Below are positions 15,110 through 64,000 of a DNA stretch of 64,000 nucleotides, piece by piece. The translations under genes and the position numbers were made by a program. Position 1 is the stretch's first letter. Each line of letters begins with the position of its first letter. This DNA comes from Sulfuricurvum sp. (GTDB lineage: Bacteria; Campylobacterota; Campylobacteria; Campylobacterales; Sulfurimonadaceae), in contig NZ_JAQTUH010000007.1 of NCBI RefSeq assembly GCF_028710345.1, forward strand, positions 124,001-188,000, read 5' to 3'. The notes under the pieces were generated by a model. It was not told the DNA's origin and ran no database searches. It saw only the letters and a list, made by a program, of their open reading frames with translations.

Positions 15110-15136
15110 AATACCCTCTCAACTCTCCTCTTTCGC

Positions 15137-15162
15137 TATAATATTCTCACTTTAACAGTGAG
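15137..15162 (+). promoter_or_regulatory. Candidate promoter of the STAND NTPase transcript
   Basis: A perfect TATAAT (15137-15142), preceded by GC, is followed by CTCAC-TTTAACA-GTGAG (15146-15162), a small inverted repeat that would lie at the transcript start. No good -35 box is visible, as is common for sigma70 promoters in this phylum. Confidence 0.5.
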
Positions 15163-15171
15163 GCACATAAT

Positions 15172-15258
15172 TTGTCATTCTTTCTAAAATCTCTTTTAAA
15201 TTCATTGCCACGAAATAGGTTTAGAATAAATGAGATTAATATTGCGATAACAATATGA
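15172..15258 (+). CDS. Possible 28-codon leader ORF coupled to the STAND gene
   Basis: A short reading frame starts at TTG 15172, eight bases after a GAGG Shine-Dalgarno match, and ends with a TGA that overlaps the ATG of the large NTPase (ATGA at 15255-15258). It would encode a basic, hydrophobic peptide beginning MSFFLKSLLNSLPRNRFR. The large gene has no Shine-Dalgarno of its own, so ribosomes finishing this ORF could restart on it. It may instead be the truncated start of an older gene interrupted by the island. The overlap is seen; the role is inferred. Confidence 0.4.
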   Translation: MSFFLKSLLNSLPRNRFRINEINIAITI

Positions 15259-18200
15259 GTAAGTATCAATTTCCATTAAAAGATGAAAAAGAGTTTGAAT
15301 TATTAGTTAATGATTTATGCGCAGAAAAATATGGCTTTGATTTTCAAGTATATGGAAGAAAAGGTCAAACTCAAAGTGGAATAGATGGGCTTTCTTTTGC
15401 AAAGAATGAAAAACAAATTGTTTTTCAGTGCAAAAATAAACTAATAGCTAGAGATGATACAAAAATTCAAAAAGAGCTTTTAGCTGATATAGAAGATGAA
15501 GTTCAATCGGCTAGTACTAAATTTACAAATATTGATACATTTATTTTTGCGAACTCTTTTAAACAAGATACTGTTCTACAAGATAGAGCAATAGAATTAA
15601 CATTTCAATATGGCTTTACTGTTGTTCTGTGGAGTTGGGAAGAGATTGAAGGATTACTCGAAAAATATCCAACAGTAGCAAAACATTACTATCCTTGGGC
15701 ATTTGATAAAAGTGTATTGAGCGAAAATGACATCAAACAAAAGTTTCACGAAAATTCAGTATCTTTACTTTCCTCATCAAGTCTATATATTGAAAAAAGT
15801 TTTATTGATATGCCCGAATTTGATGAGATTTTTGAGTTTATAAATAGTGAGAATTATAAAGATGATTTATTGGTTCTGACTGGAAAAGCTGGTATCGGTA
15901 AAACCGCAATATTAAGTAAGATACAAAGTGTTCTTATAGAGAATAATATGGCTTATTTGAGTATTAAAAGTGATAAAATCGATATAGAAAGTCGAGATTC
16001 ACTTTCTAAATTTTTTGGCGTTGAAGATATTTTACATTCTATAAAACAGTTATCAAGAAAAGAAAAAGTCATTGTGTTGATAGACCAACTGGATGCTTTA
16101 TCTTTAACAATGTCATCAAATCAAAAAGTAATAAATATTATCTTGGGGTTTATAGAACAATTAAAATACATCTCAAATGTAAAAATAATCGTTTCTATCA
16201 GGGAATATGATTTAAAAAATGATCCGTTATTCAAACATTTAGATGACTCTAATGTTATAAGAACACAGTTATTGAGTTTTGAATATGTCAATGACAAATT
16301 AAAATCTTTTGTAAAAGAATCTGTAACATTAAATAATACCTTAATTGAGTTATTACGAACACCACTACATCTTTCGATTTTTATAGACTTATATCCTAAT
16401 GACAATAGCTGTATATCCATTAAAACACTGCAAGATTTATATAACAAATTTTGGGAACAAAAAGTCAATAGTGAGTCAATTGATAGAACTACGAGACAAA
16501 ATAGTATTAAGTTATTAAATTCAGTCGTTCAAAAAATGAATGAAATAAAAAAAATTGAAGTTCCTGCTTTATATTTTGAAGACGAATTTAAAGAAGAAAT
16601 GCGTCTTTTATGTAGTAATGGAATTTTGAAACAAGAGAATAATAAAATCTCATTTTTTCATCAAACTTTTTATGAGTATCTTTTTGCAAAAGCATTTATG
16701 AAAAAAGGGAAATCTCTTTATCAGTATATTGTAATAACCTCCCAAGATTTGAGTATAAGAGAGCAATTTAAACAAATCATTCAGTTTTTAAAAGGAACAA
16801 ATGAAGAGCAATATCTGTTAGAACTTAAAAACATTTTGTACTCAGATAAAGTTCGATTTCATATCAAGCTTTTATTAATTTCATATCTTGGAAGTCTTGA
16901 AAATCCGACCACCGAAGAATTCGCTTTTGTAAAAAAACTCTTTACTGATGATAAAAACTTTGAAAAGTATTTTATAGAAAGTTGGATATCCGCTGATTGG
17001 CTAATCTATTTTAAAAAAGATGGTTTTTTTAATGATGAGAATTTTAAAAAATATAATTTGCATTATAGATTGGAAACATTTGTAAACAAAGAGCCGTATT
17101 TGGTTTTAGAAATATTAGACGAATGTGAATTTGATTCTGAATTCAAAGATGAAGCCATAATGCTGTCACTGGAAAAACTTGATAATTGGAATGATTATAG
17201 TTTTGCAATTTTTGATAAATATCATCATGTCATGCGTAAAGAGAATGTGAGATTTGATATAGAAAAGATTTATAAAAAAGTATATTTATTCAATCAAGAA
17301 TATGCGATACATTTGTTTTTTGACTTTTTAGATACTCTCATAAAAGAAGCTAACAATAATAAAAATGATCTTTTAGATTATCATTGGTATAAGATATTTG
17401 AATTTTTAGTAGCAATGAACAATCAATATATTTTTCAGAAGCTCTTGGAATCAATCCAAAAAATTAGTAGCAAATTTGAGAGAAAACACGCTAAAAAAGA
17501 GTTTTTAATTACTGATCAAGTTTTTGATTCTTGGATGTGGAAATATGATAGTTCAAATCATTCTACATTGAGACTATATAGAAAAACACTTGAAAAAATA
17601 TCGCAAGTTGCTATAGATGATAAAGATGTTTTTATAGAACTTATCAAACCCTATCAGGATACTCGCTATCTTTCCCTGATTTCATTTTTAATATTTGGTT
17701 ATTCAAAAAATCCAGATGACTATAAAAATGAAATATTGGCATTGCTTACAAATATAAAACTTTTAGAAGAGATGTCTTTTGACCACGATGATGGATATGA
17801 GTTGGTAATGTTATTAACTAAATCATTTCACATATATGATGTATCAGAACAAGAAAAAATATTCAATTCTATTTTTCAGGTAAATCCGAAATGGGAAAGT
17901 AGCTATTATGTAGGCAAGTGTCACGGAACATATTTTAGATTAAAAAAATATGAACTTTTATCTCAACTTGATATAGAGGATATAAAGAAATTTGGTTATT
18001 TAAAAGAGTTTCAAGAGTTGCAAAGAAAATTTTATTGGTATAAGCTCAAAAAACCGCATAATGTTGAATCTGGATGGGTTGGAGCACCTTTCGATGAAGA
18101 AGTTTATAAGAAGATGAGTTTGAATAATTGGCTTCAATCGATGAAAGTATTTGATGGTACGGTATCAAGAAAAAGTATGGATAGTTTTTTAAGAGGTAGT

Positions 18201-19523
18201 AAAACTGAACATCATAGGCAATTTGAAAAAGAAGTTACTGAAAAACCAGATAACTTTTATGATTTATTGCTACAGTTAAAATCTGAAAATATTCATGCGG
18301 ACTATTTGTCAGCTGGATTAAGCGGATTAATAGCATCTAACTATGATGCAGAGAAAGTTTTAAAAATTACTCATCTATATTCAGATATAGAAAATAGTTG
18401 GTTAAAACGGACGATTTTAAAAGCTATGAAACATTTAATACATCGGGATAAATTTGATGATAGCTTAATAACTATTTTAGAAGCGAATAGAGATATCAAG
18501 TATGAAGGTTTAATAAGGGATAAGGATAAGTTTCAGACTATTCATGATTATATGTCTAGTTCAATTAATTCTTTTGAAGGTGATTTCGCAGAACTACTCC
18601 CGTTGGTTTATAAAAATGTAGTTAATGATGAAAATAGTACAAAAAGGGTTATGAGCCTTATTGATAATGTTATTGATAAAAATGTAGATTTTGTCATTTT
18701 TGGATTATTAAGAACTTTAGGAAATATTGAATCTGTTGATAAAATTTTATTTGCAAAGCTTCTAGTTAATCTTATAGAAAAAGATGAAATTGGACAAGTT
18801 TCAATATTTTCGTTACACAATTTTCATTATTTATATCTGAATGAGTATGTCTCAAAAGAACAATTGCTCGTATATATTAAAAAGTGTATATCTTTTGCAA
18901 ACAATGTAAAAGATAAAGAAGATGCTCATTATATAAATAATTTAGGAATGTTTTTATTTTACTATTACGTAACAGAAAAAGATGAAATATTTGAAGAGAT
19001 GCTGAATGAAGCGATTAGTTCTAATAGCCAAATTATTCATGGAGTATTACATCAAATTTTTGAACAAGAGCTACATTCAAAAGATCAAGAAAAAGTTGAA
19101 AAATCAAAGCAATTTATTTTAAAATTTAAAAATGATGAAGAGAATGACTACTTTTATACGTATGATTTAGCAAAAATGAAAGGATTGAATTTTATACAAG
19201 ATGATTTTGCATTTATTAAAAGTTTAGCAGAATCTCTTAATATAAGAAAAGAAGTCAAAAGTTTTATTGAATATTTACAAAATGAGTATTATTTAGATAC
19301 TAATCTATCTGAAAAAATATTTGAACTTTTAGAGGTACTCATACACAATATTGATGCAAATAAAGAGATGGGTTATTATGATTCAAGACCGTTGATCGAG
19401 TTTATATTAGAGTTGAATACTAGAGCAAAATCGGATGAAAAGAAAATAGGCATATTAGATTTATTGGATAAATTTTTAATGAGTGACACGCTACGGCATA
19501 CTACTAAATCAGCAATTGATTGA
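15255..19523 (+). CDS. Mrr-like nuclease fused to STAND/NACHT-type NTPase (Avs-like defence protein)
   Basis: A 1422-residue multidomain protein. Residues 1-150 resemble an Mrr-type PD-(D/E)XK nuclease: Glu15, the yGRkGQtQsGiDG loop with Asp44, and Gln58-x-Lys60 (FQCKNK). A P-loop NTPase follows: Walker A GKAGIGKT at 210-217, Walker B VIVLIDQLD at 272-280, a sensor-like arginine in VSIRE, and a winged-helix motif FFHQTFYEYLFAKAF at 467-481, typical of NACHT/STAND proteins. The remaining 900 or so residues are helical repeats without a named domain and would be the sensor. This order matches antiviral STAND (Avs) proteins such as Avs4, which cut DNA after binding a phage protein. It is far more AT-rich than its neighbours, which suggests horizontal transfer. 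The antiphage role is inferred. Confidence 0.82.
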   Translation: MSKYQFPLKDEKEFELLVNDLCAEKYGFDFQVYGRKGQTQSGIDGLSFAKNEKQIVFQCKNKLIARDDTKIQKELLADIEDEVQSASTKFTNIDTFIFANSFKQDTVLQDRAIELTFQYGFTVVLWSWEEIEGLLEKYPTVAKHYYPWAFDKSVLSENDIKQKFHENSVSLLSSSSLYIEKSFIDMPEFDEIFEFINSENYKDDLLVLTGKAGIGKTAILSKIQSVLIENNMAYLSIKSDKIDIESRDSLSKFFGVEDILHSIKQLSRKEKVIVLIDQLDALSLTMSSNQKVINIILGFIEQLKYISNVKIIVSIREYDLKNDPLFKHLDDSNVIRTQLLSFEYVNDKLKSFVKESVTLNNTLIELLRTPLHLSIFIDLYPNDNSCISIKTLQDLYNKFWEQKVNSESIDRTTRQNSIKLLNSVVQKMNEIKKIEVPALYFEDEFKEEMRLLCSNGILKQENNKISFFHQTFYEYLFAKAFMKKGKSLYQYIVITSQDLSIREQFKQIIQFLKGTNEEQYLLELKNILYSDKVRFHIKLLLISYLGSLENPTTEEFAFVKKLFTDDKNFEKYFIESWISADWLIYFKKDGFFNDENFKKYNLHYRLETFVNKEPYLVLEILDECEFDSEFKDEAIMLSLEKLDNWNDYSFAIFDKYHHVMRKENVRFDIEKIYKKVYLFNQEYAIHLFFDFLDTLIKEANNNKNDLLDYHWYKIFEFLVAMNNQYIFQKLLESIQKISSKFERKHAKKEFLITDQVFDSWMWKYDSSNHSTLRLYRKTLEKISQVAIDDKDVFIELIKPYQDTRYLSLISFLIFGYSKNPDDYKNEILALLTNIKLLEEMSFDHDDGYELVMLLTKSFHIYDVSEQEKIFNSIFQVNPKWESSYYVGKCHGTYFRLKKYELLSQLDIEDIKKFGYLKEFQELQRKFYWYKLKKPHNVESGWVGAPFDEEVYKKMSLNNWLQSMKVFDGTVSRKSMDSFLRGSKTEHHRQFEKEVTEKPDNFYDLLLQLKSENIHADYLSAGLSGLIASNYDAEKVLKITHLYSDIENSWLKRTILKAMKHLIHRDKFDDSLITILEANRDIKYEGLIRDKDKFQTIHDYMSSSINSFEGDFAELLPLVYKNVVNDENSTKRVMSLIDNVIDKNVDFVIFGLLRTLGNIESVDKILFAKLLVNLIEKDEIGQVSIFSLHNFHYLYLNEYVSKEQLLVYIKKCISFANNVKDKEDAHYINNLGMFLFYYYVTEKDEIFEEMLNEAISSNSQIIHGVLHQIFEQELHSKDQEKVEKSKQFILKFKNDEENDYFYTYDLAKMKGLNFIQDDFAFIKSLAESLNIRKEVKSFIEYLQNEYYLDTNLSEKIFELLEVLIHNIDANKEMGYYDSRPLIEFILELNTRAKSDEKKIGILDLLDKFLMSDTLRHTTKSAID

Positions 19524-19562
19524 GTGAATGGAAACAGTCTGAATTGAAAATGAGGGGGGCAA
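19524..19562 (+). repeat. Imperfect direct repeat, left copy
   Basis: Bases 19524-19562 (GTGAATGGAAACAGTCTGAA and onward) align with 20649-20683 (GTGAAATGGGAATAGGCTGA and onward) at about 32 of 40 positions. The two copies bracket the Abi-like gene and its leader. Confidence 0.5.
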
Positions 19563-19577
19563 GGGGTAAAACCCCTT
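19561..19577 (+). terminator. Hairpin after the STAND gene
   Basis: AAGGGGT-AAA-ACCCCTT is a perfect seven-pair hairpin 38 bases after the stop of the STAND gene. It has no T tract, so it may end transcription weakly or be part of a repeat element similar in style to the two-hairpin repeats at 3380 and 21479. Confidence 0.45.
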
Positions 19578-19648
19578 GGCTACGCCAGCAAAAGAGGGGT
19601 CATGTATTCAATCTTCACTTTTGATAATGTAAATTCATAAAGGAGGTT

Positions 19649-20389
19649 TTAAATACTCCGATATTTAAGCTTTATCGATTGAACATCAAACCTATCATCG
19701 TATTCAAGCAGGATTTTTAAATCGTTCAAGGCGTTGACAACATCCGATTTACTCATCCGCTGTTTTGTGTATTTCGGATTGGTTTTGATACTTTCTCCTA
19801 TACGGCGGTGATGGCAAATGTCATTTCTCGCATTTCGAATAATGGAAAACAACCCCTTGATTTGATGTTTATTACTGTATTTAGATGTACCGTTGGCATT
19901 GAGTATGGTTTCTTTTTTGATGAATTTCTCAAAGATATTGACGTATCTCGAACCGTTCAAAAACACCAGCTCAAGCGTCCCAAATGAGATGCTGTTTAAT
20001 GCTTGAGACGGTTTTTGAATAGAACGTATTTCTGCTATTTGGAAATCATTCAAATCTCGCATAACGGGGTCAAGATGCCATTGTATTCCATAAGCTTTAA
20101 CCATTCGGTGATTAACGAACGTTCGTAAAAAAGCTTCGAACTGGTTGATTTGAATATAAAGCCAATAATATTGGTTCGTGATATTTTTAATCTCTTCGAA
20201 ATATTGTTCAATCGTGTAATAATTTTTAATAGGTAGAATTTTTTTGTTATGTATCAGGGCTTTAGCACTGTCTTCGAGAATGAATTTTTCTTTTTGGCGA
20301 ACAAGTTTCAATGCTGTTTTTGTTTCGCTTAGTGAGGTTGGGATAATATTGTTAGCTAATAAAATCTGTTTAAAATGCCTATGATTCAT
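19649..20389 (-). CDS. Abi-like HEPN protein (abortive infection family)
   Basis: A 246-residue soluble protein. The C-terminal motif RNARNDICHHRR contains Arg188-x4-His193, the HEPN ribonuclease signature, and the segment SFGTLELVFLNG matches the family feature upstream of it in Abi_2 (AbiD/AbiF) proteins. HEPN toxins of this kind cut RNA when activated and stop phage growth; this role is inferred. The N-terminal third does not closely resemble classical AbiF. It faces the STAND gene tail to tail and has a long leader with hairpins. Base composition is closer to the host than that of the STAND gene, so the two may have arrived separately. Confidence 0.62.
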   Translation of the reverse strand: MNHRHFKQILLANNIIPTSLSETKTALKLVRQKEKFILEDSAKALIHNKKILPIKNYYTIEQYFEEIKNITNQYYWLYIQINQFEAFLRTFVNHRMVKAYGIQWHLDPVMRDLNDFQIAEIRSIQKPSQALNSISFGTLELVFLNGSRYVNIFEKFIKKETILNANGTSKYSNKHQIKGLFSIIRNARNDICHHRRIGESIKTNPKYTKQRMSKSDVVNALNDLKILLEYDDRFDVQSIKLKYRSI

Positions 20390-20399
20390 TTAAGTTGCC

Positions 20400-20545
20400 T
20401 AGATGTATAATTTTACCACTCCTCAGAGGGTGTCGAACCGTTCAAGATGTTTGGCTGTATCAGCTTCGAGCTGAAACTCTCTGAGATTATCCTCTTCAGA
20501 ATCTCAAAACTTCCCAAATATTTATTACGCTATATTGTATCTGAA
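20400..20545 (-). ncRNA. Hairpin-rich leader upstream of the Abi-like gene (candidate structured RNA)
   Basis: On the minus strand, a TACAAT box near 20540 is followed by two perfect adjacent hairpins: GAGATT-type arms at 20482-20488 and 20500-20506 (TGAGATT/AATCTCA), and TCAGCT-TCG-AGCTGA at 20460-20474. The Abi ATG is 70 bases further on. Some AbiF genes are known to have a conserved structured RNA directly upstream, so this could be such a partner RNA. I cannot match it to that motif by eye. Confidence 0.4.
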
Positions 20546-20648
20546 GCCTCTAAAATTTAGATTTATGCGATAAATACTAGCCATCGATAAAATTCCGTCA
20601 AGTCTCAAAATAAATAGTTAATCTTTTGATAAATATTACTTAAAGTTC

Positions 20649-20683
20649 GTGAAATGGGAATAGGCTGAATTAAAATGGAGGGC
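20649..20683 (+). repeat. Imperfect direct repeat, right copy
   Basis: Second copy of the element at 19524-19562; both end in GGGCAA and lie on the same strand. Confidence 0.5.
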
Positions 20684-20720
20684 AAAAAAAAAGGTCGAGG
20701 GTAATTACTCCCTCGACCTT
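20683..20720 (-). terminator. Orphan intrinsic terminator on the minus strand
   Basis: AAGGTCGAGGG-TAATTACT-CCCTCGACCTT is a perfect 11-pair stem with an A9 run on the left side, which is a U9 tract for minus-strand transcripts. No minus-strand coding gene lies upstream: 20721-20879 is non-coding and then comes a plus-strand gene. It may end a small RNA. The whole 490-base gap 20390-20879 otherwise holds only the Abi leader, the repeat copy and a promoter for the Sel1 gene. Confidence 0.75.
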
Positions 20721-20829
20721 AATCGTACCACTCCATTAAGCGTATGGAAAGTTTTGTATTAGCATAAAGTTATACCACAGAATGAAGATTTATTTTTCGA
20801 TTAAATTATTTTTTATAGTCTACTATTAG

Positions 20830-57475: not shown

Positions 57476-58135
57476 GATAGTAACCTCAAGGCGACGGTTT
57501 TGTGCACGCCCTTCATCGGTTGTATTTGTTGCGATAGGCTCTTTCGACCCTTTACCAGAGGATTGGATACGTGTAGAATTTATTCCAGACGCAATGAGTT
57601 TATCCGCTAACGCTTTTGCACGTGCTTCAGAACGTGGTTGATTGCGTGCATCGGTTCCAATAATATCAGTATGACCAACGATTGATATTGTGCATGCCGG
57701 ACTTTCTTGCATAAAAGTAATTAATTTTTCTATATCTTTGTCTGCAGATGAAGGGATAATATTGGATGCAAAAGCAAAATTGATATGAAGAGTAACACTT
57801 TTCGGGCATCCTTTACTATCGACTTTATATCCACTAGGGGTGTTCGGACAAGCATCTAGTGTGTTAATAATACCGTCATGATCATCATCGAGTGGCACTT
57901 GTGCAACTATGGGTGCAGGTATCGGTGTCACTGGCGGAGTAGTAACTGCAACGGGTGTAGCTTTTTCTTTATTAATCTCTTGATAGGTTGTAGAATAGGT
58001 GGTCTTTTTATATTGTTCAGGGCAATATTCGTGACGATCGATACAGTGTTGATCAATAGCTGAGGCTTGAACCGCAAATACAAAAAGAGCAATGACTGAC
58101 AATGCTTTGGCAGATTTATGTGGATGATGGAACAT
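57470..58135 (-). CDS. OmpA family outer membrane / peptidoglycan-binding protein
   Basis: A 221-residue exported protein. A signal peptide (about 1-26) ends in ASA. A variable linker rich in Pro, Thr and Val follows, then one TSP3-like calcium-binding repeat (DDDHDGIINTLDACPNTPSGY), then the OmpA C-terminal domain (about 110-221) with GHTDIIGTDARNQPRSEARA and GKGSKEPIATN. It should bind the diaminopimelate of peptidoglycan. It has no outer membrane barrel. It is divergent from the type I secretion operon. Confidence 0.9.
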   Translation of the reverse strand: MFHHPHKSAKALSVIALFVFAVQASAIDQHCIDRHEYCPEQYKKTTYSTTYQEINKEKATPVAVTTPPVTPIPAPIVAQVPLDDDHDGIINTLDACPNTPSGYKVDSKGCPKSVTLHINFAFASNIIPSSADKDIEKLITFMQESPACTISIVGHTDIIGTDARNQPRSEARAKALADKLIASGINSTRIQSSGKGSKEPIATNTTDEGRAQNRRLEVTIK

Positions 58136-58222
58136 ATTTTAGTCCTTAAAATATTAAATGATATGTTGTAATGATACTCTATAATTGTGTTTAAAAAGTT
58201 TCATTTCCTAACAATATGTTAT

Positions 58223-58238
58223 TTGTAAAATTTTACAA
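58223..58238. promoter_or_regulatory. Palindrome in the divergent OmpA/TolC intergenic region
   Basis: TTGTAAAATTTTACAA is a perfect 16-bp palindrome, 88 bases before the OmpA-family start and about 200 before the TolC start. It may be a regulator site. The rest of the 305-base gap 58136-58440 is AT-rich and non-coding. Confidence 0.4.
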
Positions 58239-58355
58239 GTAAATTATACTATACTACATAAATATTTTTTTATGATAATACTTAAGTTGCTAGATACAGT
58301 GCATATTTAAATGAATTTATAATGAAATTATAACATTTTAAATACATTTAGCTGT

Positions 58356-58361
58356 TATAAT
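58356..58361 (+). promoter_or_regulatory. Candidate -10 box of the type I secretion operon
   Basis: TATAAT lies 79 bases before the ATG of the TolC-like gene. In the untranslated leader, ACCGA (58388-58392) and TCGGT (58405-58409) could form a small hairpin. Confidence 0.45.
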
Positions 58362-58440
58362 ATCACGAAATTATGAATTACTAAGTTACCGAAGAGTCTA
58401 AAAATCGGTGAATATTATATAATATTTTAAGGTTGAATCA

Positions 58441-59853
58441 ATGAAAAACAAATGGGCTATTGCTGCAACATTTTCACTGTGTGCAATTTCAGCACTTCAT
58501 GCACTCTCATTGCAAGAGGGAGTAGATGAAATTTTAAACACAAATCCTATCGTTCAAGAGCGTCTCCATAATTACCGAGGAACGCTAGAAGACCTACGAA
58601 CAACGGAAGCACAATATTTGCCTTCTCTTGATTATTCCGGGACTATCGGTCGTGAGAAAACAAAATCTCCAAGTACTGGTTTTAACAGTGTCTCGTTAAA
58701 TGGGTATGAACATTCACTTCAATTGACACAAAATCTTTTTAACGGTTTTGGGACAATGTATGAGTCCGATTATAACAAAGCACGTCTTTTAGCAGCAGCT
58801 TATAATTATGTTGAAAATGCAAATGACGCATCCTTTAATTTTGTCACCGCGTATATCAATGCGTTAAAAGCACGTGATATTGTCAAAATTGCAGAATCAA
58901 ACGTACAATACAATAAAGTGATTTCGATAAAGGTAGATAAGCTTTTTAAAGCAGGTATGACAACTCGTTCTGAAGTTGAAAAAGCGGAAACATCTCTTTC
59001 ATTGGCAGAATCTAATTATGTTGTGTCTCAAAATAATTTGGACGATGCCCTTTTTAACTTGGAACGTATTTATGGTAAAAGTGTTAAAGCAAATGAACTA
59101 GAGTCATTGATCTTTGAGGGCCAAATACCTGATTCCTTGGAAGAGATGCGCGAATACGCGCAATTGCATAATCCCTCTGTAATGGTAACCGATTACAATA
59201 TTAAAGCAGCACGCGCTCAAAAACTTTCGTTGCAAAAAAACTATTATCCGAAAATTGATGCTTTTGCGCGTCAAAGTTGGGCTAATAATGTGGGTGGATT
59301 AGAAGGTAATGATGAGCGTACAAAATTAGGGATAAATTTATCGTATAACTTGTATCGCGGTGGTGCGGATGAATCACAAATACAAAAAAGTTTAAGTAAA
59401 ATGAACCAAGAGACCGAAATTAAGAGGGATGTCCTTCGTAAACTTGATGAACAAGGCTCTCTTTCATGGTCTGCAAAAGAGAATTTACAACGTCAAATTA
59501 CTTATCTTAAACGTTATGAAACAACCAGTAAGAAGACATTAGAATTGTATGAAAAAGAGTACGATTTAGGTCGTCGAACCTTGCTTGACCTTACAACAGC
59601 GCAAAATGATCATGTCTCATCTCAAACTCAAATTGTGCGTGCAGAACATGATCTTCTGTTAGCTCATTATCGTATTTTAGATGCTATGGGATCAATGGTC
59701 TCAACGATACTCGGGACACAGTCCGTTACAAATTTTGAACGAGTCGGGCTAAAGTCGCTTGATAATCGTTTAGATAATGATGACCGTATAGAGAATTTGA
59801 TCGTTGCCGATCGTAAAATAGAGAAATATAAAAAAGATAAACAACAAAAATAA
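58441..59853 (+). CDS. TolC family outer membrane channel of a type I secretion system
   Basis: A 470-residue outer membrane efflux protein. A signal peptide (about 1-21, ISALHA) is followed by two duplicated helical-hairpin repeats with long coiled-coil segments and the family's strand motifs (LTQNLFNGFG, INLSYNLYRGGADESQI). TolC-type trimers span the outer membrane and periplasm. It is first in an operon with an ATPase and adaptor, hence part of one dedicated exporter. AAGG lies about nine bases before the start. The last 30 residues are charged and may be disordered. Confidence 0.92.
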   Translation: MKNKWAIAATFSLCAISALHALSLQEGVDEILNTNPIVQERLHNYRGTLEDLRTTEAQYLPSLDYSGTIGREKTKSPSTGFNSVSLNGYEHSLQLTQNLFNGFGTMYESDYNKARLLAAAYNYVENANDASFNFVTAYINALKARDIVKIAESNVQYNKVISIKVDKLFKAGMTTRSEVEKAETSLSLAESNYVVSQNNLDDALFNLERIYGKSVKANELESLIFEGQIPDSLEEMREYAQLHNPSVMVTDYNIKAARAQKLSLQKNYYPKIDAFARQSWANNVGGLEGNDERTKLGINLSYNLYRGGADESQIQKSLSKMNQETEIKRDVLRKLDEQGSLSWSAKENLQRQITYLKRYETTSKKTLELYEKEYDLGRRTLLDLTTAQNDHVSSQTQIVRAEHDLLLAHYRILDAMGSMVSTILGTQSVTNFERVGLKSLDNRLDNDDRIENLIVADRKIEKYKKDKQQK

Positions 59854-62089: not shown

Positions 62090-63423
62090 CTCCTAAAAAG
62101 AAATATAATTTTGATGCTAACGACTATCAATTTATGCGCAGTCTTTCTGCAGCAGTATTAGAAGACACTCCTCACCGTTTGCGTAGTGTGTTGATTTTTT
62201 GGCTTATAACAGTCTTTATTTTCTTTTTATGGGCAGCATTGGCCCCTATCGACGAACTTGTACGTGGAGAGGGGAAGGTTATTCCCGGTGGTGAAAATCA
62301 GATGATTCAGCACCTTGAGGGGGGGATGCTTAGTGCGATTTTAGTCAAAGAGGGGCAAAGAGTAAAATCAAATGATGTATTGCTTAAAGTTGATAACCTA
62401 AAATCTTCAAGTACGTATGAAAGCTCCCAATATAAATCAGCAGAATTGCGAGCGAGAATTGTCCGTTTACGTGCTGAATCAACAGGTGGTCCATTTTCTC
62501 CAAGCGATAAAGATATGCAAGAAATTCCGATGCAGATTATGCAAGAGCGGAGTCTTTTTGCTTCTAATAAAGATAAACTTCAATCTCAATTGGATTCATT
62601 ACAAGATTTGTATCAGCAAAAACAAGGTGAACTCAGTGAAGCACAAGGTCATATTAATGAGCAAAAACATGCTCTTGAACTGATCAAAGAAGAGGTTGCG
62701 ATTTCTGAACCTATGGTGGCTCAAGGGATTAAACCACGTGTTGAATTTTTAAAATTGCAACGTGAATATAGTGATGTGAATGAACGTTACAACAGTGTAC
62801 GAGCTTCTATTCCAAGACTCCGTTCAGCTATCAATGAGATTAGCAGCAAAATGCGTGAAGCACGTTCTGAATACGTCACCAAAGCACGAATTGATTTAAA
62901 TGCGGCAGTTACGGAAAATCAACGTGTAGGTGCTGAAAGCTCAGCGCTTGCTGATCAAGTAACGCGTACGGTGATTAAATCACCTATTAACGGTATTGTT
63001 CAAAAAATCTTCGTCAATACTGTAGGTGGTGTCATTAAACCGGGTGATAATTTAATTGAGATTGTTCCAACTGAAGGTGGATTACTGATCGAAGCTAAAG
63101 TAAAACCTTCGGATATTGCATTTATCTATCCTGGGCAAAAAGCAGTAGTCAAAGTGACTGCGTATGATTTTTCAATATATGGTTCACTTAACGGAGTTGT
63201 TTCAACGATTAGTCCCGATACTGAAACCGATCAAAAACAAAATGTCTATTATATTGTTCGTGTTCAAACTAACAAAAAATATTTAGGTACAAAAGAAAAG
63301 CCTTTGAAAATTATCCCTGGTATGATGGTCAATGTTGATGTTATTACGGGTCAAAAAACTGTATTAGAATATATTTTAAAGCCATTGCTAAAAGCTAAAC
63401 AATACACTTTTTCGGAGCGATAA
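62086..63423 (+). CDS. HlyD family periplasmic adaptor of the type I secretion system
   Basis: A 445-residue membrane fusion protein. It has one membrane segment (about 37-57), the lipoyl/barrel-sandwich half motif GGENQMIQHLEGGMLSAILVKEGQRV, a long coiled coil (about 110-290) and the second half, IKSPINGIVQKIFVNTVGGVIKPGDN, with a C-terminal beta barrel. This is the usual order for LapC/HlyD. It bridges the ATPase and the TolC-type channel. The exported protein, probably a large RTX adhesin or toxin, is not inside the window. Confidence 0.94.
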   Translation: MTPKKKYNFDANDYQFMRSLSAAVLEDTPHRLRSVLIFWLITVFIFFLWAALAPIDELVRGEGKVIPGGENQMIQHLEGGMLSAILVKEGQRVKSNDVLLKVDNLKSSSTYESSQYKSAELRARIVRLRAESTGGPFSPSDKDMQEIPMQIMQERSLFASNKDKLQSQLDSLQDLYQQKQGELSEAQGHINEQKHALELIKEEVAISEPMVAQGIKPRVEFLKLQREYSDVNERYNSVRASIPRLRSAINEISSKMREARSEYVTKARIDLNAAVTENQRVGAESSALADQVTRTVIKSPINGIVQKIFVNTVGGVIKPGDNLIEIVPTEGGLLIEAKVKPSDIAFIYPGQKAVVKVTAYDFSIYGSLNGVVSTISPDTETDQKQNVYYIVRVQTNKKYLGTKEKPLKIIPGMMVNVDVITGQKTVLEYILKPLLKAKQYTFSER

Positions 63424-63425
63424 TT

Positions 63426-64000
63426 ATGAAACTTTATCTTGTGACATCTTCTGAAAGTATCATGAACCATTGGTCCAAAGCATTAAAAAAATATCATCCT
63501 ATGAAAATTCATTCTATGAATGAATTAAATTGTTCTACGATAAAGGGAATTATATTGTGTCAGGATACGGATATAGATGAAACTAAACTACATGATTTAC
63601 TCAATAATTCTGAATCAAGATTAATGATTTTTTCGATGCTACCAGATTTTTTAAAAGCACAGCAATATCTTAGTAAAGGTGTTGTTGGATATGGTAATGC
63701 TATGATGCATGAATCTCATATACAATCAGCATATCAAGCAATCGAAGAGGGTAAGATATGGCTTTATCCTGATTTTATTTCAGGTCTAATTACACAATTA
63801 ACTCAAGTGAAACCGAAAAATATTGAGTCTCACGAGGCTCTTGAAAAACTATCACATCGTGAGAAAGAAGTGGCATTGCTTTTAGCCCAAGGTTTGACCC
63901 ATAATGAGATAGCCGAAGATTTGAATATTACAGTTCGTACGATTAAAGCACACTGTACATCTATCTACGAAAAACTTGCAATTAAAGATCGTTTAGCCCT
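63426..64000 (+). CDS. LuxR-type regulator with degenerate receiver domain (3' partial)
   Basis: The first 191 residues of a regulator that runs off the window. The N-terminal half (1-125) resembles a receiver fold, but the acidic pair, phospho-acceptor Asp and conserved Lys are missing (VTSSE at the start, ILCQDT where Asp is expected, GYGNAM in place of the Lys loop), so it probably works without phosphorylation. The C-terminal half is a GerE-type helix-turn-helix (LSHREKEVALLLAQGLTHNE...IKAHCTSIYEKL). It starts two bases after the adaptor gene and likely controls this secretion system. Confidence 0.88.
   Translation, partial: MKLYLVTSSESIMNHWSKALKKYHPMKIHSMNELNCSTIKGIILCQDTDIDETKLHDLLNNSESRLMIFSMLPDFLKAQQYLSKGVVGYGNAMMHESHIQSAYQAIEEGKIWLYPDFISGLITQLTQVKPKNIESHEALEKLSHREKEVALLLAQGLTHNEIAEDLNITVRTIKAHCTSIYEKLAIKDRLA

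Follow-up and report, generated by a model that had tools for sequence, protein, structure and literature searches.

The protein encoded at positions 15255 to 19523 of the window (the whole 64,000-nucleotide stretch of Sulfuricurvum sp. DNA analysed here), which we designate P0001, is in our judgement likely to be a single-gene STAND immune receptor of the NLR type that works like the Avs proteins. It is probably an abortive-infection sensor outside Avs1-5, for which we infer phage defence, a trigger and DNA cutting. We favour this reading because P0001 combines an invariant nucleotide switch, a conserved nuclease and a separate sensor region with exchangeable effectors, horizontal spread and neighbours drawn from defence systems. 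As the sequence-only reading had it, the locus is one large gene: the frame opens with ATG, has zero internal stops and occurs in one copy in the whole genome. The features to which we refer are these.

15110-20790, no strand: island, an insertion flanked by dusB (up to 15109) and a Sel1-repeat gene (from 20880)
15137-15142, plus strand: TATAAT, candidate -10 element ahead of the P0001 gene, read by eye
15255-19523, plus strand: Mrr-STAND-solenoid protein P0001, 1422 aa, intact ORF call
15255-15704, plus strand: predicted PD-(D/E)XK Mrr-type nuclease domain, aa 1-150 (E15, D44, Q58, K60), from the predicted model, invariant columns and a sub-threshold Mrr_cat match
15792-16694, plus strand: NACHT-type STAND NTPase module with winged-helix part, aa ~180-480, from Pfam, model, Foldseek and conservation
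15882-15905, plus strand: Walker A, GKAGIGKT, aa 210-217
16080-16103, plus strand: Walker B-type motif, IDQLDALS, aa 276-283
16194-16205, plus strand: sensor-1-like motif, SIRE, aa 314-317
16653-16679, plus strand: winged-helix motif, FFHQTFYEY, aa 467-475
16707-19520, plus strand: all-helical HEAT/importin-like solenoid, presumed sensor, aa 485-1422, from the predicted model and Foldseek
18015-18329, plus strand: best conserved solenoid block, aa 921-1025, from conservation; common to the 9n00 protein
19649-20389, minus strand: P0002, 246 aa, second island gene, weakly Abi/HEPN-like by Pfam and PADLOC matches

The central module unites a Walker A motif, a double-acidic Walker B, a sensor-1 arginine and a winged-helix histidine, the combination by which a STAND/NACHT ATPase is recognised, and K216, D277, D280, R316 and H469 within these motifs are identical in 33 of 33 family members. 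The last of them lies in a motif that we take to correspond to the histidine motif of NLRs. Among Pfam models, AAA exceeds its cut-off on this module, and no STAND or NACHT cut-off is reached by P0001 (nSTAND3, E 2.7e-5, 24.3 bits against 27.2 required; NACHT, E 0.0015, 18.9 against 26.7). Because relatives do pass these cut-offs (L044 for nSTAND3, L028 for NACHT and L052 for nSTAND1), we regard the shortfall as a limit of sensitivity rather than as evidence against the fold, and the presence of NLR NACHT modules among the fold matches agrees with the original assignment of a NACHT/STAND ATPase.

The N-terminus is modelled by AlphaFold2 as alpha-beta-beta-beta-alpha-beta-alpha, the order of PD-(D/E)XK folds, and thus joins the core fold to the catalytic E, D and Q-x-K residues of an Mrr-type nuclease, although the Pfam model Mrr_cat is sub-threshold on P0001 (E 0.0028). 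Across 13 diverse Mrr-type nuclease domains E15, G42, D44, Q58, K60 and W126 are invariant; the three residues named from the sequence (Glu15, Asp44 and Lys60) are therefore conserved in homologues, and Gln58 can be added to them. When the front half (residues 1-640, AlphaFold2 with aligned relatives, pLDDT 83.7) was compared with the PDB by Foldseek, Avs4 bound to a phage portal (8dgf) ranked top, with E-values of 4e-16 and 8e-16, followed by NLRC4, NLRP9 and NLRP3, and this bears out the claim that the domain order is that of antiviral STAND proteins. TM-scores are modest (0.30 for Avs4 and 0.41-0.44 for the NLRs), so what is shared is an architecture and a switch, not the same protein.

The remainder of P0001 had been described as helical repeats with no named domain, and so it appears: residues 470-1422 are modelled as entirely helical (AlphaFold2, relatives aligned, pLDDT 87.3), and past residue 480 no named domain is found, the best Pfam match (E 0.37) being at chance level. 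By Foldseek against the PDB, this solenoid of ~940 aa resembles importins, condensin HEAT subunits and SF3B1, with the low TM-scores expected of flexible repeats. A separate sensor region is thus present, as the proposed comparison with Avs sensors presupposed, but its form is HEAT/importin-like, no Avs structure stands among the 50 best of 80 solenoid matches (E <= 0.001), and the solenoid sequence has no match in solved Avs chains. Its conserved positions in aa 921-1025 are E921, R924, P945, W959, H986, F990, Y1017, G1024 and L1025. Among close relatives the first half, aa 501-900, has a mean pairwise identity of 67% as compared to about 78% elsewhere, with the lowest conservation at aa 641-800; one could guess that this variable part marks where recognition varies.

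The gene has a G+C content of 26.9% (GC3 19.8%) as compared to 40.9% in the window outside the island, in agreement with the AT-rich island originally noticed. G+C also falls to 32-33% at 58001-59000 and at 63001-64000 of the window. The interval between dusB and sel1, 5.77 kb in the window, is 86-112 bp in six congeners (L060-L065), and because four others (L069-L072) carry an unrelated short ORF there, membrane-protein-like, we consider it a variable site. The island measures ~5.8 kb, with its right edge placed approximately, near the conserved sel1 promoter; a search for target-site repeats at its ends gave no more than the repeats that AT-rich DNA would be expected to contain, and a search of Rfam found no RNA element at the locus. 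The neighbouring gene said to be Abi-like does adjoin P0001, while its matches support an Abi identity weakly (AbiU2 in Pfam, E 0.083; PDC-M34B in PADLOC, E 2.8e-4); a HEPN-type R-x4-H (RNDICH) was seen by eye. P0002 was not found beside any other homologue examined, and neither the 40 related genomes nor the plasmids searched gave a copy. A conserved partner gene of P0001 was accordingly rejected, since neighbours vary between loci and P0002 was not found with other copies.

Near-full-length relatives with 69-73% identity are present in four more Campylobacterota genomes from three families, together with a further 73% relative cut by a contig end (L021) and more diverged copies in Arcobacter (L023) and in G421 (L014); beyond these, a scan of genome contigs yielded at least about 30 distant relatives among the matches listed, nearly all from Bacteroidota and most 1370-1560 aa long. 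The gene was absent from all 40 congeners searched, and only 2 others of 228 genomes of the family have any match. Whereas UvrA identity drops from 91-94% within the genus to 80% within the family and 74-75% in other families, that of P0001 is 69-73% throughout; because identity is flat and does not follow the species, and because occurrence is sporadic, we conclude that the gene has been transferred horizontally. On the core tree, P0001 falls together with a Sulfurospirillaceae copy (94/89, slightly below firm support) and not with the copy from Sulfurimonas, a member of its own family, and five copies lie at 25-27% G+C in genomes whose flanks are at 30-41%. The distribution and the empty site show that the gene spreads horizontally as island cargo, and the reading of the locus as a horizontally acquired island is upheld. 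Relatives were found neither in viral contigs (two scans) nor in annotated phage records, and we therefore see no link to prophage.

Among 145 neighbours of the relatives, PADLOC models of Gabija GajA match three (best E 4.5e-300), and Pfam identifies AbiEii, UvrD helicase, phage integrase and conjugation proteins; with 145 neighbours and no matched control set, this is an association, not an enrichment. In L032 (4047-12299) and L035 (4054-12301), the STAND gene has a HamB-like Hachiman helicase immediately upstream of it, at 10-23 bp. In both loci a 262-aa ORF precedes this helicase and a 200-aa protein with a HELGH metallopeptidase-like motif follows the STAND gene by 10-12 bp, possibly forming a composite operon. 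Elsewhere, L017 (84-14209, genome G205) encodes a 730-aa Mrr-STAND protein with 28% identity over residues 4-476, in an apparent defence island with DUF262-like and PAPS-reductase-like genes (named by eye). Several Campylobacterota copies (L011, L012) stand alone among housekeeping genes, so that a tie to defence islands is evident for only some of the family. Alternatively, one could envision P0001 guarding mainly against plasmids or rival mobile elements by sensing a protein of conjugation, replication or recombination. Relatives do reside in conjugative or integrative elements (conjugation-type genes in L013, L024 and L038, an integrase in L015, and a Sinorhizobium conjugative plasmid), but phage-defence genes ride such elements too and the window copy is chromosomal with no visible mobility genes, so we consider this explanation unlikely.

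The relatives retain the switch and the solenoid, and their N-termini differ, being Mrr, LmuA-like, GRD-type PD-(D/E)XK, Cap4-like (by eye) or of other kinds; in distant relatives these effectors are mostly nuclease types. On the core tree effector types cluster, yet not all form single clades, and L046, which is LmuA-like, is nested among three Mrr types with support of 100/100. We therefore conclude that effectors have been exchanged on a common sensor core. A transmembrane effector considered for L014 was dropped, as the frame stays open as far as the end of the contig and its 3' portion is read in a different one. Two Saprospiraceae proteins, L030 (6401-11771) and L054 (8004-12116), are without a nuclease and have short N-termini that by eye look like an effector-associated (death-like) adaptor; in L030, the upstream gene has a possibly matching adaptor domain. 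That the switch-solenoid core is kept though the effector type changes argues against a type IV restriction-like enzyme, in which the nuclease or solenoid would read foreign DNA (its modification or its ends) and the NTPase would serve as motor or licence. Such an enzyme would suit an Mrr-type nuclease, and DNA-binding proteins (condensin Ycg1, FANCI) are among the best fold matches to the solenoid, but the top fold of the front half is a protein-sensing Avs, followed by NLR switches and not by restriction translocases, which makes this account improbable in our view. A STAND regulator with no part in defence, or a gene in decay, would accord with the strong AT bias, but we give the idea very little credence given the intact ORF, the conservation of all catalytic residues in distant relatives, the patchy, transferred distribution and the lack of any DNA-binding or metabolic domain in P0001 by Pfam. 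Nor did any profile model assign P0001 to a STAND family of metabolic or regulatory role.

For an Avs-like receptor, the course of events might be as follows. At rest, the NTPase of P0001 would probably be closed. The C-terminal solenoid would bind a protein or complex of an invading phage or other mobile element, upon which the NACHT-type switch would bind or exchange ATP and oligomerise, as its invariant residues and its Avs/NLR fold suggest. The oligomer would gather the N-terminal Mrr-type nuclease domains and DNA would be cut, which would stop the infection and probably kill or arrest the cell; these last steps are modelled on Avs1-4 and on the conserved catalytic residues.

A handful of families of bacterial NLR-type sensors of phage proteins are known, and P0001 suggests that there is another, encoded by one gene that could readily be transferred to a test strain and distinguished by its arm. 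More tentatively, and with less than even confidence, P0001 may represent an Avs-like class not yet described, with a HEAT-like sensor family of its own in Campylobacterota and Bacteroidota, built on one sensor core with swapped effectors and detecting some conserved part of the phage that is neither terminase nor portal. The natural effector swaps would let sensing be separated from killing, and if P0001 protects, its trigger would tell whether bacteria read conserved phage parts beyond terminase and portal.

Avs1-4 sense terminase, portal or other phage proteins and then cut phage and host DNA, killing the cell (PMC12931631). P0001 has the effector, STAND and repeat-sensor architecture of Avs1-Avs5, and the label Avs-like holds for this architecture but not for a match to any PADLOC Avs model: none matches P0001 at E <= 1, and we have left it out of Avs1-5 for that reason. 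Avs4 (AVAST type 4, 8dgf) likewise places a PD-(D/E)XK nuclease before a STAND NTPase and a long helical sensor; it differs in that P0001 has neither a PADLOC Avs sequence match nor an Avs among its 50 best solenoid fold matches. Avs2 (9o4e) is matched weakly, by profile, in the NTPase (E 3.8e-6) and not in the solenoid, and the weak PADLOC match to Avs2 is confined to the NTPase of the distant relatives L052 and L076. The PADLOC candidate family PDC-M54A, of unproven function, matches residues 204-484 (E 5.8e-13), the STAND region, and leaves out the nuclease and solenoid. The eukaryotic NLRs NLRC4, NLRP3 and NLRP9 share the NACHT and winged-helix switch fold, but carry CARD/PYD and leucine-rich repeats where P0001 has a nuclease effector and a HEAT-like solenoid. 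The nearest homologue with a known structure is a 1523-aa 'AAA family ATPase' (9n00/9n01/9yix), for which a literature search found no name, function or paper; it is clearly homologous to P0001 in the nuclease core and STAND module (profile E 7.5e-40) and also matches its solenoid, chiefly in the central block (profile E 3.5e-14), although it is distant and its nuclease is of another subtype; should this protein prove to be a named defence protein, P0001 would become a distant member of it.
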